A DNA stretch of 64,000 nt from Haloactinospora alba (GTDB taxonomy: Bacteria > Actinomycetota > Actinomycetes > Streptosporangiales > Streptosporangiaceae): NCBI RefSeq assembly GCF_006717075.1, contig NZ_VFQC01000001.1, forward strand, positions 2,279,501-2,343,500. Reading direction: 5' to 3'. Below the pieces are notes generated by a model. That model did not search any database. It saw only the letters and a list, made by a program, of their open reading frames with translations, and had not been told where the DNA came from. Made by a program: the position numbers and the translations under genes. Shown one piece after another: positions 49,825 to 60,264 of the stretch (the first letter of the stretch is position 1; each line of letters opens with the position of its first letter).

Positions 49825-52431
49825 TTGCGCTATGTGATGGATTTCGAGCAGATCGACGCGACGAATGTCGCAGACGTGGGTGGAAAGGGGGCGTTTCTGG
49901 GCGAGCTCTCACGGATCCCCGGTACCGGCGTTCCGGGCGGCTTCTGCATCACGACGGACGCCTTCCGACGGATCGTCGCCGAGGCGCCGTCGATCGGTAC
50001 CCGGTTGGACCAGCTGTCCCGCGCGGAACCGGACGACCACGCGGCCGTCCGCACCCTGAGTGCCGATGTGCGCCGCAGCGTCGAGGACGTCGCGGTGCCC
50101 GACGCACTCGCGACGGCTATCAGCGAAGCACTCACCCGGTTCGGGGAGCACACCCCCTACGCGGTGCGATCCAGCGCGACCGCCGAGGACCTGCCGACCG
50201 CGTCCTTCGCCGGCCAGCAGGACTCGTACCTGAACATCACGGGTCCCGCGGAGATCCTTCGGCACGTCCGACGGTGCTGGGCCTCGCTGTTCACCGAATG
50301 GGCGGTGACCTACCGTCTCCGCAACGGCTTCGACCACCGGAAGACGGGTATGGCCGTGGTCGTACAGCGGATGGTGTTCCCGGACGCGGCCGGGACCCTG
50401 TTCACCGCGGACCCGGTGACCTCGAACCGCAAGACCGCCACCGTGGAAGCCGGGTGGGGGCTCGGCGAGGCACTCGTCTCCGGTCTGGTCTCCGGTGACG
50501 TCTACACGGTGCGCGACGACCAGGTCGCCTCCGCAGCGATCGCTGCCAAGACCCGGGTCGCTCAGGCGTCGCCGGAAGGCGGCACCCATGACGCACCGAC
50601 CGATCCGCAGCGGCAGGCGCAGTCGGCTCTGACCGAAGCACAGGTCGTGCGCCTGGTGCGGCTGGACCGGCGCATCGAAACGCACTTCGGCCGGCCCCAG
50701 GACATCGAGTGGTGTCGGGTCGGCGACGACTTCCACATCGTCCAGAGCCGACCGATCACCACCCTGTTCCCCGTCCCCACGACCGATGACCAGGAGAACC
50801 ACGTCTACGTCTCCGTCGGTCACCAGCAGATGATGACCGACGCGATGAAGCCGTTGGGGCTCTCCCTGTGGCAACTGACGACCCCGCGAGCGATGCACGA
50901 GGCGGGCGGACGGTTGTTCGTCGACGTCGCCCCCGCCCTGGCGACGCCCGCGGGCCGTGCGAACCTCATGGAGACTCTGGGGAGCTCCGACCCGCTGATC
51001 GGGGACGCGCTGCAAGCCGTCCTCGACCGCGGCGACTTCCTCCGCACACTTCCGGAAGAAGACTCCACCGCCGCCCCCGCCGATGACGCACCCGCCCCGA
51101 TCGCGACCGATCCCGAAACCGTCAGCGAACTGATCCGACACAGTGAGGCCTCGGTCGCCGCCCTGCAGCGCGAGATCCGGAATCTGTCCGGGCCGGCGCT
51201 GCTCGACTTCATCCGGTCCGACATCGCGGAGTTGAAGCGCATCCTGTTCGACCCGCAGAGCCTCCGGGTGATCATGGCGGCGATGGAGGCGAGCCAGTGG
51301 CTCAATGAGCACATGGAGGCGTGGCTGGGCGAGAGGAACGCGGCCGATGCACTCACGCAATCCGTCCCCCGCAACGTCACCTCGGAGATGGGGCTGGCGC
51401 TTCTCGACGTGGCGGACGCCATCCGGCCGCACTCCGACGTCGTGGAGTTCCTGCACCGTGTCGCGGACGAAGGCCGGCAGGGCGACGGCTTTCTGGACGA
51501 GATGGCCGGGCTGGCCGGCGGGCCGGAAGCACGTGACGCCATCCGGGGTTACCTCGACACGTACGGGATGCGCTGTGTGGGCGAGATCGACATCACCAGA
51601 GCGCGCTGGAGCGAGCAGCCCGCCGCGCTCGTGCCCGTCATCCTCGGCAACATCAAGAACTTCGAGCCGGGCGAAGGCGAGCGACGCTTCGAGCGGGGAC
51701 GCCGGGAGTCACACCGGAAGGAACAGGACCTGCTGGCGCGCTTGCGCGCCCTTCCCGACGGCGAGCGCAAGGCCGAGGAGACCAAGCGGATGATCGACCG
51801 CGTCCGCACCTTCGCCGGGTATCGGGAGTACCCCAAGTACGGCATGGTCAGCCGTTACTTCGTCTACAAGCAGGCGTTGCTGCGGGAAGCCGACCGCCTC
51901 GTCCGGTCCGGCGCCCTGCGCGAGGACGAAGACATCTTCTTCCTCCGGTTCCAGGAGTTGGAAGAAGCCGTGCGATCCGACGAGGTGGACGCCGAGCTCA
52001 TTCGGGAAAGGCGGGAGGCGTTCCGGGCGCACGAGGCGCTCATCCCGCCCCGGGTCCTCACATCGGACGGCGAAGCCCTCACCGGCCAGTATCGGCGTGA
52101 CAGCGCCCCGTCCGACGCGCTGGCCGGCCTCCCGGTCTCGGCAGGGGCCGTCGAGGGCCGTGCCCGTGTCGTCACGGATATGGCTCAGGCCGACCTTGAG
52201 GCGGGCGACATCCTGGTCACCGCCTACACCGACCCCAGCTGGACCCCTGTGTTCGTCACCGTCGCCGGACTGGTGACGGAGGTAGGCGGGCTCATGACGC
52301 ACGGGGCGGTGGTCGCGCGGGAGTACGGTCTGCCGGCCGTCGTGGGTGTGGAGCAGGCCACCCGGAGGATCCGGGACGGGCAGCGGATCCGCGTGCACGG
52401 GACCGACGGGTACGTCCAGATCCTCGCCTGA
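49825..52431 (+). CDS. rph: Rifamycin phosphotransferase (PEP-synthase-like)
   Basis: This 868-residue protein has the three-domain layout of rifampin phosphotransferase: an N-terminal ATP-grasp domain (VGGKGAFLGELSRI, PYAVRSSATAEDLPTASFAG), a central rifamycin-binding region, and a C-terminal swivelling His domain with the catalytic His near residue 826 in GGLMTHGAVVAREYG. It transfers the beta-phosphate of ATP to rifamycins (releasing AMP and phosphate) and so inactivates them. The TTG start at 49825 gives MRYVMDFEQID, matching the usual N-terminus; an ATG at 49837 is the alternative. It is a single gene flanked by IS debris. Confidence 0.88.
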   Translation: MRYVMDFEQIDATNVADVGGKGAFLGELSRIPGTGVPGGFCITTDAFRRIVAEAPSIGTRLDQLSRAEPDDHAAVRTLSADVRRSVEDVAVPDALATAISEALTRFGEHTPYAVRSSATAEDLPTASFAGQQDSYLNITGPAEILRHVRRCWASLFTEWAVTYRLRNGFDHRKTGMAVVVQRMVFPDAAGTLFTADPVTSNRKTATVEAGWGLGEALVSGLVSGDVYTVRDDQVASAAIAAKTRVAQASPEGGTHDAPTDPQRQAQSALTEAQVVRLVRLDRRIETHFGRPQDIEWCRVGDDFHIVQSRPITTLFPVPTTDDQENHVYVSVGHQQMMTDAMKPLGLSLWQLTTPRAMHEAGGRLFVDVAPALATPAGRANLMETLGSSDPLIGDALQAVLDRGDFLRTLPEEDSTAAPADDAPAPIATDPETVSELIRHSEASVAALQREIRNLSGPALLDFIRSDIAELKRILFDPQSLRVIMAAMEASQWLNEHMEAWLGERNAADALTQSVPRNVTSEMGLALLDVADAIRPHSDVVEFLHRVADEGRQGDGFLDEMAGLAGGPEARDAIRGYLDTYGMRCVGEIDITRARWSEQPAALVPVILGNIKNFEPGEGERRFERGRRESHRKEQDLLARLRALPDGERKAEETKRMIDRVRTFAGYREYPKYGMVSRYFVYKQALLREADRLVRSGALREDEDIFFLRFQELEEAVRSDEVDAELIRERREAFRAHEALIPPRVLTSDGEALTGQYRRDSAPSDALAGLPVSAGAVEGRARVVTDMAQADLEAGDILVTAYTDPSWTPVFVTVAGLVTEVGGLMTHGAVVAREYGLPAVVGVEQATRRIRDGQRIRVHGTDGYVQILA

Positions 52432-52889: not shown

Positions 52890-53420
52890 CTTCTGCCGCG
52901 CTCGATGTTCCATGCCCGGTTGTGCGGTACCTGACCCGGCTGCGGCTACCCACCGCAGCCGCATCGCCACCCCGCGGGGATGACCGGGTGTTGGGCTCGT
53001 CCGGCCACGCGGTGTTCTGGTTCCGCGTGCTGCCCGTCCGACCGCCGATGCGGGCATCTCCCCGGTCACAGGCTTATCGCTACACGGATGAGGCCACCGG
53101 TCTCCTGTCCGGACAGGTTCCCGAGCGGTCCGAGGTCGTGTCCCGCTGCCGCAGGCAGCAGATGACCCGCCTCATTCTGGACACGCCCCTCATCGCCTGC
53201 GACCGGTTCGAGGACAGCAATGAGGCGTGGCGCTCCGGCACGGCCAGGCACGGTACCGGCACTGTGTTGTTCCTTGCCGCCCCGGAGGGCATGCCGCTGC
53301 GGGGCTGGCCACCCTGGCCGCCAGCATGACCGGCGTGGGCTATGTCGGTGCTGGTGCCGGCGCGCACCCCCACGTGCGCCCACACTCCCCCACCGCGCTC
53401 AGTCCCAGCCGTGTCGGGCT
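52890..53420 (+). pseudogene. IS5-family transposase, N-terminal relic
   Basis: Shifted frames read LDVPCPVVRYLTRL, then SSGHAVFWFRVLPVRPPMRA, SQAYRYTDEATGLLSGQ, then LILDTPLIACDRF and VLFLAAPEGMPLRG. This is the helix-turn-helix domain and start of the DDE domain of an IS5-family (IS112-like) transposase, with substitutions and frameshifts. The C-terminal half is lost. Confidence 0.6.
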
Positions 53421-53723
53421 ATCACCCAGGCTGCGCTCGCCTCCAACAACGCATGGAAAAGTTTCGCTGAGAGAACCTCACCATCCGCCCACAACTCCAC
53501 AAAAGAGCATTTTCCGCCATGTCAAGTTAAACGATAAATCACAAGGAAGGACAGGAATCCGGCACCCCTCATTTCAGAACTCCAAAACCAGAACCGAATT
53601 CCGGTGCACCGATTTCCTTTCCCGCAGCCCGGGGTAATTGCAGCGTGGGTTCCTGAGCGCACGCGATCCGCCAGGAACCGGCCTTTTCCCCTTCGCATAA
53701 CGGACTTTCATGGAGGTAATCAG
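53421..53723. promoter_or_regulatory. Upstream region of the guanine deaminase fusion gene
   Basis: About 300 bp, partly AT-richer (for example GTTAAACGATAAATCACAAG at 53525-53544). A GGAGG at 53712-53716 precedes the GTG at 53724. No purine riboswitch core or clear promoter was recognised. Confidence 0.35.
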
Positions 53724-56039
53724 GTGACCCCCCTGGAGACTCTCGACAGTGCCCGTGCCAACGCCGACGCATCCCGTTCCGGAAACCCGGCGGCCCGCGA
53801 AACGCCCGCCCCCGAATCGACCGTCGCTGTGCGGGGACAACTGCTCTGGTTCCACGACGATCCCTTCCTGGTCCCCAACAAGTACGCGATGCGCTACGAG
53901 CACGACGGCCTCCTCATCTGCTCGAACGGGAAGATCCAGCACTGCGGCCCCTACGAAAGCGTCCGCGAGCACCTGCCTCCGCAGGCCACTTTCGTCGACC
54001 ATCGGGACAAGATCATCACGCCCGGGTTCGTCGACACGCACGTGCACTACTCGCAGACCGCCATGATCGGGGCCTACGGCGAGAAGCTGATCGAGTGGCT
54101 GCAGAAGTACGTGTACCCGGAGGAGATGAAGTTCTCCGACCGGGAATACGCCGATGAGATCGCGCAGCTCTTCTGCGAGCAGCTGCTGCGCAACGGCACC
54201 ACCACCGCGCTGGTCTTCTGCACGAGCCACCCGGAATCGGTCGACGCGCTGTTCGAGGAGACCAACCGGCGCGGGATGCGGATGGCGGCCGGAAAGGTGC
54301 TCATGGACCGCAACGCCCCCGCGGAACTACTCGACTCCTCCGTCCAGGAAGCCTACGAGCAGTCCCGCCGACTGATCGAACGCTGGCACCACGCCCCGGG
54401 AACCCGCGGCGTCTACGCCGTCACCCCCCGGTTCGCAGTGGCCTGTACCGGGGAGATGCTCCAAGCCGCCGACGACCTCTGGAGGAGCGCCGATGGCCTG
54501 ATCATGCACACGCACGTCTCCGAGAACCCCGACGAGGTCTACCAAGTGCGCGGGCTGTTCCCGGAGCGCTCAGGCTATCTGGACGTCTACCACCACTACG
54601 GCCTGCTCGGTCCCCGGGCGGTTCTGGCCCACGGTGTCCAGCTGACAGCCGGTGAGCTGGACACCTGCAGCACCACCCGGGCGGCGATCGCTCACTGCCC
54701 CACGTCGAACCTGTTCCTGGGCAGCGGACGCTTCCAGCTCCGCGACGCCAAGAACCCGCGACGTCAGATCACGGTAGGGCTGGGCACCGACGTGGGCGGC
54801 GGGACGAGCTTCTCGCCCCTGAGCACGATGAGCGAGGCATACAAGGTGGCGGCCCTCGGCGACTACCCTCTCGACGCGGCGCGCATGTTCTACCTGGCCA
54901 CCAAGGGCGGCGCCGTCGCGCTGGGCATGGACCACCAGATCGGTTCACTGGAACCCGGGTACGAGGCCGACTTCACCGTTCTCGACCCGAAGGCCACCCC
55001 TCTGCTGGCCAGGCGCACCCGCAACAGCCCCAACATCACCGACGTGCTGTTCGCGCTGTCGATCCTGGGCGACGACCAGGCCGTCGCAGAGACCTATGTG
55101 GCGGGACGACGGTCCTATGCTCGGGAGGCCAAGCCGGACCCGCAGCCCAAACGCAACTGGACCCTCACCTGGAGCCGCTACGACTGGGAGAGCGACACCT
55201 GGCTGCCCGACCAGCCGACCCCGGCCGTCGGATGGCGTGCCCCGGCGATCGACTCCTACGCCGGCAACCTGCACTGCGTCTACAACTCGACCCGCGACGA
55301 ACTCCACTGGACCGTTTTCGACGGGACGGAATGGAGCACCCCCGTCAGCCTGGGCCGCCAGGCCGGGACCAACCCGAGCCTCGCTGCCTACAACGGCAAA
55401 CTGTACTGCTGCTACGTCTCCCAATCACATAAAACGTTCCTGATCAGCTACGACGACGAGACAGGCGGATGGAGCCCGCCCCAGCACATCGCCTCCGCCC
55501 CTGACAGCGGCCAGCCGCCGACCCTGGCCGCCTACCACGGGCTGCTGTACGTGTTCCTGCGCGACCGTGAGTACAAGCCCGGATACATCCACTGCGCCAC
55601 CTACGACGCCGAACAGGACCTGTGGAGCGCATGGAGGCAGCTCTGGCGCGTCGACACCTACGACCCCGTAGCAGCGGCCCCCTTCGCCGGACGGCTGTAC
55701 GTCATGTACTCCCCTCGCCTCGCCGAAGACAGCTACGAGACGCAGGAACTGCGATGGACCTCCTACGACTCCGAGACCGACAGGTGGGACGGGCACCGGG
55801 TCCTCGCCGGAACGTTCGATACGGCCCGCCCCGCGCTCACTCCCTACAACGGTCTGCTGTACGCCTCCGGTAACCAGTGGGCGGGCACGGAGTTGCACAA
55901 CTGGACCGCCAGGCTGGGACCCGACGTTCCGACCTGGAGCACCCCTGAGTGGAATGCGCAGATCCATCCGGGCACGTCGTTCGGCCTGGGTCTGACCGCC
56001 TACCACGGGCATCTCTACGCGGTCTACTTCACCCGCTGA
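53724..56039 (+). CDS. Guanine deaminase fused to a C-terminal propeller-like repeat domain
   Basis: This is a 771-residue protein. Residues about 30-470 form a complete guanine deaminase (guanine to xanthine and ammonia): zinc ligands His106 and His108 in PGFVDTHVHYSQ, TTALVFCTSHPESVDALFEE, KVLMDRNAP, HTHVSEN, LAHGVQLT and the acid in GLGTDVGGGTSF. Residues about 477-771 contain six units of 45-55 residues with the pattern P-L-AAY-G-LY-x-Y and repeated W-S or W-T motifs, which suggests a beta-propeller of the lectin or sialidase-like type. GuaD proteins normally end near residue 450. There is no signal peptide. The GTG at 53724 has GGAGG upstream. No other purine gene is adjacent, and IS remnants flank it. 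Confidence 0.85.
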   Translation: MTPLETLDSARANADASRSGNPAARETPAPESTVAVRGQLLWFHDDPFLVPNKYAMRYEHDGLLICSNGKIQHCGPYESVREHLPPQATFVDHRDKIITPGFVDTHVHYSQTAMIGAYGEKLIEWLQKYVYPEEMKFSDREYADEIAQLFCEQLLRNGTTTALVFCTSHPESVDALFEETNRRGMRMAAGKVLMDRNAPAELLDSSVQEAYEQSRRLIERWHHAPGTRGVYAVTPRFAVACTGEMLQAADDLWRSADGLIMHTHVSENPDEVYQVRGLFPERSGYLDVYHHYGLLGPRAVLAHGVQLTAGELDTCSTTRAAIAHCPTSNLFLGSGRFQLRDAKNPRRQITVGLGTDVGGGTSFSPLSTMSEAYKVAALGDYPLDAARMFYLATKGGAVALGMDHQIGSLEPGYEADFTVLDPKATPLLARRTRNSPNITDVLFALSILGDDQAVAETYVAGRRSYAREAKPDPQPKRNWTLTWSRYDWESDTWLPDQPTPAVGWRAPAIDSYAGNLHCVYNSTRDELHWTVFDGTEWSTPVSLGRQAGTNPSLAAYNGKLYCCYVSQSHKTFLISYDDETGGWSPPQHIASAPDSGQPPTLAAYHGLLYVFLRDREYKPGYIHCATYDAEQDLWSAWRQLWRVDTYDPVAAAPFAGRLYVMYSPRLAEDSYETQELRWTSYDSETDRWDGHRVLAGTFDTARPALTPYNGLLYASGNQWAGTELHNWTARLGPDVPTWSTPEWNAQIHPGTSFGLGLTAYHGHLYAVYFTR

Positions 56040-56384
56040 CCCGCTTCCGGTGAACGAGGGGAGCAGCCGGACGCGGCGAACACTGCGCCGGCTGCACTGA
56101 CGGAACCGCGGCGCTCGTCGGGGACGCCGGCGTCCGGCAACGCGACGAGCGCGCACCCCGCATTGCGCGGTGTGGACGCGGCTCGGTCAGCGGAAGACCA
56201 CCAGGGGGCGCCATGCCCGTGGCGCCCCCTACCCGGACACTGCCTCGGACCATCACTCCCGACGTCCCAGCCGAAGAGGCCGTTCTTCTCCACCGGTCGG
56301 CAGCGAACCGCGATCGGAGAAAACGCCACCGTTGACTTCACGTGCGTGGCGTCACACAACTCCGTCGCACCCCACCACAGGCGT
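56040..56384. other. Gap after the deaminase fusion gene
   Basis: No supported gene. A symmetrical CAGGGGGCGCCATG/CGTGGCGCCCCCT-type inverted repeat at about 56201-56230 could terminate the upstream transcript. Confidence 0.4.
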
Positions 56385-56540
56385 CTTGCTTTCTTCAGCC
56401 GCCCGGCGGCCTCCCGCAGTGGGGCGCGCACCAGGATGGCGTGGTTAATCTCGCCGTACTCATGAGGCTCGAAGGCCGCCAACTCCGACCAGCGCGACCG
56501 AAGGTGTGGTGCAGCCGCATCGCCGCCCTGTGGGGGTGCC
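56385..56540 (-). pseudogene. Third fragment of the tRNA-Val-type integrase
   Basis: The minus-strand frame RSRWSELAAFEPHEYGEINHAI, then VRAPLREAAGRLKKARR, matches residues 199-236 of the integrase at 18593, including the catalytic Arg. Just before it, in another frame, AMRLHHTFGRAG matches residues 175-186. Sequence on both sides is unrelated to the integrase. It shows that an element of the same family once visited this region or that a piece was moved here. Confidence 0.75.
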
Positions 56541-58812: not shown

Positions 58813-58865
58813 AGCTGCGTAGAATCATCGGCTCACTCCCTGCCCGGAATCAGCAAGTCCCCTCA
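58811..58865 (-). mobile_element. IS3-family right-end remnant (third occurrence)
   Basis: The sequence from CTAGCTGCGT to the terminal CCCCTCA matches the right ends of the IS3 copies at 21122 and 28357 with several substitutions. The rest of the element is missing, as the MITE-like element abuts it. The end has cut into the 3' part of the MFS gene at 58866. Confidence 0.75.
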
Positions 58866-60264
58866 CCCCCGAGATCCGCGAAGGCCATCCCTGGCCCAGC
58901 CGCAGGCTGATCACGGCCGTGAGCGCGAAGACCCCGGCCTGATACAGCATCGCGTGCCAGAACGCGTCGCCGGAGTCGGCAGCAGGTGCGAAGTAGGCGA
59001 GGGCGGCCAATGTGATACCGACAGACCCGCCGAGCTGCTGGGCGGTGGGCAGCAGTCCCGATAGCGACCCAGCGGTATCGGTGTTCGCGCGCGCCAGTAC
59101 CAGCGAGAACACCGAGGCGGTGAACGCGCCGAACGCCGCGCCGCCCAGCGCCAGCAACGGCGCCGCCATCCACGGGACCGCGCTACCCACGAGCGGGGCG
59201 AGTCCTACCATGACCACGACCAGTGCCAACGCGGCGGCGGTCAGCAGGCGCGGACCGTGGCGGCGGGCCAGGCCGGCAGCACATCGGCTGCCGACGATGG
59301 CCGCGGCTGCGAACGGGGACGACAGCGCGGCGGCGGCCAGCGCGGAGTAGCCGGCGGCCTGCTCCAGGTGCAGGAACAGCAGGTAGGTGAACGACGGAAC
59401 CCCGGTGTTGAAGACGAAGACCAGCAGGATGCCGGAGCGCGCGGTCCGGTCACGCAGAGCCGCAGGATGGATCAGCGGGTCCGAGCTGCGACGCTGCGTT
59501 GCGGCGAAGCCGCCCAACACAACCGCGGAGCCAGCGAGGCTGCCCAGGGTCCACGGCGGCCATCCCGCGTTTGGCCCGAGAGCGAGCGGGAGGATCAGCA
59601 TCCCGAACCCGATTGTGGCGAGCACCGCGCCGAGCGCGTCGATCCGCTGCCCGTCGGCGGGACGTGAGCGCGGCAGTACCCGTGCCCCCGCCAGTGCCGC
59701 CAGCGCCACTGGAACGGTCACCAGGAAGATCGAGCGCCAGCCCATCCCGAGCGGGTCCGCGCCGATCAACAGCCCGCCCAGCAGCGGTCCGACCAGCGAG
59801 GCGACCCCCATTGTCGCCCCGTACAGCCCCAGTGCGTGGGCGCGCCGCGATGCAGGCAGCGCCGTTTGGATAATCGAGAGGACTTGGGGGGCGACGAGGC
59901 TGCTTCCCGCGCCTTGGACCAGCCGGGCCGCGATCAGCATGGCCGGCGTCGACGCGAACGAGCACACCGCGGAGGCGAGTGCGAACACGGCGGTGCCGAT
60001 GGTGAACAGGCGCCGGTAACCGTAGCGGTCGCCCAAGCGTGCCGCGGTGATGAGCAGGCACGCGTAGGAGAGGGTGTAAGCGGCGAGCATAAGCTGCACC
60101 TCACCCGGACTGGCGTGCAGGTCGTGCTGGATCTCCGGTGCAGCCACCTGCGCAATGGTCACGCTGAGCAGCTGCACGAAGGTAGCGCTGAGCACCACGG
60201 GCAGCACGAGCTTGGATGCGGCCGGACGCGCCACGGACGTCATGGGTGGATTCCCAGCGGTCAT
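58825..60264 (-). CDS. DHA2-family MFS exporter, C-terminus replaced by IS3 end
   Basis: This 479-residue exporter has about 14 transmembrane segments. Motif A is LGDRYGYRRLF after TM2, and motif C is in the GATMGVASLVGPLLGGLLIG region. Natural sequence runs to about PSRISG (58866), and the last dozen residues (VRGLADSGQGVSR) are read from the IS3 right end, so a short native tail is lost, though all membrane segments seem present. ATG 60264 overlaps the stop of the hydrolase gene (ATGA). Function may be retained. The substrate is unknown. Confidence 0.8.
   Translation of the reverse strand: MTAGNPPMTSVARPAASKLVLPVVLSATFVQLLSVTIAQVAAPEIQHDLHASPGEVQLMLAAYTLSYACLLITAARLGDRYGYRRLFTIGTAVFALASAVCSFASTPAMLIAARLVQGAGSSLVAPQVLSIIQTALPASRRAHALGLYGATMGVASLVGPLLGGLLIGADPLGMGWRSIFLVTVPVALAALAGARVLPRSRPADGQRIDALGAVLATIGFGMLILPLALGPNAGWPPWTLGSLAGSAVVLGGFAATQRRSSDPLIHPAALRDRTARSGILLVFVFNTGVPSFTYLLFLHLEQAAGYSALAAAALSSPFAAAAIVGSRCAAGLARRHGPRLLTAAALALVVVMVGLAPLVGSAVPWMAAPLLALGGAAFGAFTASVFSLVLARANTDTAGSLSGLLPTAQQLGGSVGITLAALAYFAPAADSGDAFWHAMLYQAGVFALTAVISLRLGQGWPSRISGVRGLADSGQGVSR

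Follow-up and report, generated by a model that had tools for sequence, protein, structure and literature searches.

The nearest described relatives of the protein analysed here are a guanine deaminase, which matches its first part, and several propeller families that resemble its second. Guanine deaminase 6ohb, the closest PDB chain (E 1.8e-133), comprises 439 residues, aligns to residues 54-467 and has no counterpart of the 300-residue propeller that follows. Among the propellers, likeness is found to the PLL/PHL lectins of Photorhabdus (PDB 5c9o and 5mxe), to the fucose lectins AAL and AFL (PDB 1ofz and 4d52), and to the Kelch propellers (KLHL20, Keap1) and the designed, Kelch-derived SAKe6 proteins. 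The PLL lectins have seven blades, and the sugar site of AAL/AFL is made up of Arg, Glu and Trp. In PHL, a protein of 369 residues that has no enzyme part, the fucose site consists of Thr194, Trp199 and Trp214, and the galactose site of Arg186, Glu188 and Trp202 (PMC5584973; PMC6943638). Each half of the present protein is of a known kind; their combination was not found described in the open-licence literature, judged by titles and abstract openings, in keeping with an initial sequence-only reading that knew of no such enzyme.

The window, a 64,000-nucleotide stretch of the Haloactinospora alba genome, carries on its forward strand a single frame (53724..56039) that runs from a GTG start to a stop codon and encodes 771 amino acids. 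The sequence GGAGGT lies six bases 5' of the GTG at 53724, and the starts of two fused orthologues, from Nocardiopsis potens DSM 45234 (74% identity) and Nocardiopsaceae bacterium YIM 96095 (79%), fall at the same position. The product comprises a guanine deaminase domain (residues 33-467, 53820..55124, delimited by the matches to NF006679 and 6ohb), a proline-rich linker (residues 468-478, 55125..55157, placed by the alignment and by the low confidence of the first residues of the propeller model), and a six-bladed beta-propeller (residues 479-771, 55158..56036, recognised by an AlphaFold2 model, fold matches and a repeat test), all on the forward strand. The start, stop and frame agree with the in-frame fusion proposed in the sequence-only reading. 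A scan of 53200-56500 on the strand of the gene for promoter and terminator patterns gave no sigma-70-type match and no terminator match, from which little can be inferred.

The deaminase domain shares the whole of GuaD, scoring 530.9 bits with TIGR02967 (cut-off 375.4) and, over residues 33-467, 601.0 bits with NF006679 (cut-off 351). An alignment of 28 deaminase rows locates on the forward strand the HxH residues H106 and H108 (54039..54047), H264 (54513) and D356 (54789), which serve as metal ligands in the amidohydrolase family, and H303 (54630), the active-site His; all five, together with Glu267, are conserved in 28 of the 28 rows. The active site is intact in the fusion protein, as had been claimed in describing GuaD as complete with all zinc ligands, and the protein would be expected to convert guanine to xanthine and ammonia. 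A signal peptide is unlikely, as was also proposed at the outset: averaged over 15 residues, Kyte-Doolittle hydropathy peaks at 0.43 within the first 60 residues, and no fused protein is strongly hydrophobic near its N-terminus (peak 15-residue mean, 1.15). The gene product would be a cytosolic guanine deaminase.

The C-terminal part, at residues ~471-771, consists of six units of roughly 45-55 residues each. Their mean pairwise score is 44.5, compared with 22.0 +/- 1.2 in 1000 shuffles (Z 19.4), so that the ~295 repeated residues noticed in the sequence-only reading are borne out. The AlphaFold2 model of the propeller (me24ac257fe18; three input rows; mean pLDDT 83.3, pTM 0.86) contains beta-strands and no helices and is read as six blades, in accordance with the repeat-based fold expected from the sequence. 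The strands are six pairs resembling P-x-L-x-x-Y-x-G-x-L-Y and six resembling L-x-W-x-x-Y-D...W, and in our reading of the model and the units the last blade is completed by the strand pair that opens the domain, as is usual where propellers close. In a full-length AlphaFold2 model, also built from three rows, the pLDDT is 47, so the placement of the two domains is not defined by the model. Strand D carries an invariant Trp in every one of the six blades across all ten fused proteins described below, and the invariant propeller residues are mostly core positions of this kind.

No established family claims the domain. Scanned alone, the C-terminal part gave only sub-cut-off Pfam matches (End_beta_propel, E 0.008; BNR_4, 0.015; Kelch_6, 0.6), and its ~300 residues matched no NCBIfam family. 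PHROGs and PADLOC likewise offered no family, and none of 50,697 phage records contained a propeller match at E 0.1; a phage or defence origin was rejected on these results. In Foldseek the SAKe6 proteins came first (E 8e-12) and the PLL/PHL lectins next (4e-9), with sialidases from rank 32 downward. The top row of VIA-align was the fucose lectin AFL (Z 25.9, 254 residues, 2.6 A), tied with the Kelch protein KLHL20 (Z 25.1, 264 residues, 2.7 A). A profile of the ten fused propellers searched against PDB with hmmsearch matched SAKe6DR (4e-19), PHL (2.7e-17), PLL (1.9e-15) and KLHL20 (1.5e-12), these E values being sums over several weak stretches, of which the four in PHL each reach 9e-5 to 0.1 alone.

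These likenesses bear on the suggestion that the domain is a lectin that docks the deaminase on a bound glycan. The units resemble those of PLL and PHL, as the profile and Foldseek matches indicate, and the fucose lectins AFL and AOL are the top structural rows. AAL and AFL also share the six blades (Z 24.8-25.9 over ~254 residues), but their identity to the window propeller is 10-12%, and the fungal-lectin family is not among the Pfam matches of the propeller up to E 1. The PLL/PHL lectins are seven-bladed, whereas model and sequence agree on six blades here. By hand mapping on the sequence, equivalents of the fucose-site pair Trp199 and Trp214 (identified in PMC5584973) occur together in none of the six blades, a Trp214 counterpart being present in blade 3 only, and the galactose-site Glu188 has no Glu counterpart in any of the ten fused proteins. 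A PLL-type lectin role is not supported, because the Trp pair is missing from every blade; nor is there a sign of export, and we regard glycan docking in general as unlikely. The sequence-only reading, which compared the domain with lectin or sialidase-type propellers, was right about the fold as one of the lectin-propeller class, but Kelch proteins match it equally and the PHL sugar-site Trp residues are missing. The sialidase comparison fared worse: the Asp box [ST].D.G.[TS]W has no match in the window propeller, End_beta_propel and BNR_4 stay below cut-off, and sialidases rank low in Foldseek.

Kelch propellers and SAKe6 have six blades and reach Z 24-25, but membership of the Kelch family is not indicated (Kelch_6, 10.6 bits against a cut-off of 25.3), and the whole domain contains one GG doublet. 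A shared fold by itself shows no function. By exclusion, and by analogy with Kelch proteins, protein binding or self-assembly would be the likeliest role of the propeller. The account that we favour, and consider somewhat probable, is that of a cytosolic guanine deaminase with a non-catalytic propeller for binding or assembly, joined once and later lost in some lineages. The C-terminal propeller would take no part in catalysis and would most likely bind a protein partner or the enzyme itself, thereby placing or assembling the deaminase in the cell. A bolder and more tentative version, to which we give limited credence, is that a purine enzyme has been turned into a hub, its Kelch- or lectin-like propeller binding a specific partner and tying guanine breakdown to another process, with loss of the propeller switching this link off in some species. 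Mammalian guanine deaminase (cypin) doubles as a scaffold protein, and the hub might be likened to that role.

Propellers of the same layout occur in actinobacteria without a deaminase. Stand-alone proteins (e.g. those of loci L026, L031 and L089) have the unit layout and strand-closure register of the fused propeller and can be aligned with it end to end; most of those read have six units, and that of L016 has five. In place of GuaD they contain ~150-200 residues without an above-cut-off Pfam match. Several of them (L026, L031, L020, L089 and others) are frames of ~450-520 amino acids whose N-terminal region is conserved (motif resembling ARWWGFEIxLNE) and whose units are nearly identical. 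Two stand-alone proteins scanned against Pfam gave sub-threshold DUF6242 and SpaA_3 only, and at 0.001 a profile of eight stand-alone propellers with their N-terminal region matched nothing in the PDB, in contrast to the fused-propeller profile. PLL-like units also follow two other frames, which we take to be alpha-galactosidase-like in G535 (L106) and SpoIID-like in G424 (L105). The fused propeller belongs with these actinobacterial propellers, a group marked out here that no Pfam model covers above its cut-off.

The search for the fusion covered 345 genomes of the order. A propeller match at 0.001 was found in 46 of the 345 and a TIGR02967-type deaminase at 1e-70 in 26, of which 23 are above the family cut-off. 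Both parts share one frame in ten genomes from seven genera (10 of the 26 with the deaminase); the other 16 deaminase genomes lack the attached propeller, and in two genomes (G242 and G027) both parts are present on different contigs. The fusion sought in other actinomycetes was in this way found. The same junction in ten genomes rules out an assembly chimera, and the contig (C1) measures 3.87 Mb; a chimera, which the sequence-only reading had named among the findings that would undo its claim, or a chance read-through is practically inconceivable. One scan of genome contigs yielded 11 stretches, two of which encode relatives, both fused. G108 has two identical fused guaD copies with the same neighbours on two contigs (L075 and L076), one of them near a contig end, and the second copy may be an assembly duplicate.

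Wider sampling, in which at most ~6 candidates per genome were scored and rare fusions may therefore have escaped, added no fusion outside the family among the frames read. Of 394 genomes sampled evenly across the class, 25 had propeller matches at 1e-6, of which seven are fused genes already in the order survey, all of the family of the window genome; among the other 18, one frame each was read in 17 (G162 was left out) and no deaminase was seen, the frame of G412 (L099) not being found and several frames running beyond the flank of ~1.5 kb on each side. In a sample of 396 genomes of the phylum, only the window gene itself and G434 reached the 1e-12 threshold, and the G434 frame has no deaminase. 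Plasmids were rejected as carriers of the fusion, as none of the 644 plasmid records that match the query covers 80% of it at one place.

In the 28-row deaminase tree, six fused genes form one clade (support 98/98), and in the clade of genus g34 fused and unfused genes are intermixed, four of its eight rows being without the propeller. In the propeller tree, a branch with support 98/95 separates the ten fused propellers from 24 that have no deaminase. The unfused rows are 21 stand-alone loci plus G504, G133 and G684; L030, of a different build, was left out, the G180 and G152 rows were trimmed short, and the long branches of G063, G132, G684 and G133 weaken the tree. Within the fused rows, the branching of the propeller tree is similar to that of the GuaD tree. 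The 14-row GuaD clade needed for a single origin is present in the best tree with support of only 69/27, and a constraint uniting only the ten fused GuaD rows was rejected (p-AU 0.00015), as expected with losses but equally with repeated gain. A single fusion followed by losses would explain both trees, the propeller probably having joined guaD once, in the ancestor of the Nocardiopsis group. Independent gain in the two fused clades is not needed, given the grouping of the fused propellers and the 14-row clade, though the long branches make this less certain.

One loss can be followed directly. G100 and G125 are sisters in the deaminase tree (100/99) and largely share their neighbours; their DNA is 90.8% identical over 1452 bases on one side of the propeller and 85.6% over 347 bases on the other. 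In G100 a net 900 nt is absent, in frame, at the propeller, with the deaminase and neighbours intact, and behind a new, earlier stop there remain the five last propeller codons (CVHRS) and the stop; this remnant rests on a blastn piece that starts exactly there and runs into the next gene, and is too short for tblastn (E 16). The alignment on both sides, the gap and the remnant therefore establish that G100 lost its propeller by a net 900-nt in-frame deletion. Among the unfused g34 genes, loss is shown for G100 alone: when the G125 propeller was compared by tblastn with the DNA behind guaD in G109, G092 and G096, no convincing remnant appeared (best E 0.55, 1.1 and 0.15, respectively), the best matches in G109 and G092 being to the linker. 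Since the same join recurs in related soil bacteria and was lost in one, the propeller is a real but accessory addition; it would modulate the enzyme and not be required for it, because it was later lost in some lineages. A core purine enzyme here carries a conserved combination of domains not found described in the literature searched. Of two close species, G125 has the propeller and G100 lacks it, a natural pair in which the function of the added domain can be tested directly.

Such losses would also suit a near-neutral passenger, a propeller picked up by chance, which folds and is harmless and is in time deleted or left to decay. Its absence from 16 of the 26 deaminase genomes and from half of the g34 rows, and the G100 deletion that spared the deaminase and its neighbours, are in line with this, as is its faster evolution. 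Across six pairs, dN/dS by NG86 spans 0.21-0.39 in GuaD and 0.28-0.55 in the propeller, and is higher in the propeller in five of the six, so that by this measure the propeller appears less constrained than the enzyme in those five; YN00 gave, for two of the six pairs, 0.06 for GuaD and 0.08-0.15 for the propeller. The same ratios, however, indicate that the propeller is under purifying selection, and its retention in seven genera, the invariant strand-D Trp of every blade and the concordant branching of the two trees also argue against a passenger, which we consider rather improbable.

Upstream of the fusion gene, the next confident gene, 1.3 kb away, encodes a rifamycin-inactivating phosphotransferase (49831-52428, forward strand; NF041857, 1493 bits, cut-off 999); downstream lie a short frame read as leucine-rich-repeat-like and a DHA2-type MFS efflux permease (58825-60243, reverse strand; best model TIGR00711, below cut-off). 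Neighbours vary among the fused loci of the clade to which the window gene belongs. In five g34 genomes (cluster 1) a single-chain xanthine dehydrogenase-like gene, its family checked in one member, adjoins guaD, which could suggest that the propeller tethers the deaminase to xanthine dehydrogenase and so hands xanthine on. But this neighbour accompanies fused genes (G125, G108) and unfused ones (G100, G109, G092) alike, and the stretches around G124 and G098, both fused, and around the unfused gene of G096 lack it, so the presence of the propeller does not track it. Nor does it occur near the window gene or any of the five further fused genes in the same clade as the window gene (~8 kb on each side; shorter in G063 and partly in G130). 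In the window genome the xdh cluster, recognised by a MoCoBD_1 match and otherwise read from sequence, is near 1.61 Mb, 0.7 Mb from the fusion gene, and such a tether is very improbable. The same xdh genes are accompanied by an 8-oxoguanine deaminase (NF006055, 608.1 bits, cut-off 532).

Two further observations concern individual genomes. G092 encodes two different unfused guanine deaminases (L043 and L067), of which one falls in the g34 clade and the other in that of G122/G102. In G108, 5' of the fused guaD, a CRISPR-like array of at least 16 units with 61-nt spacing occupies positions 9830-10842 of L075.
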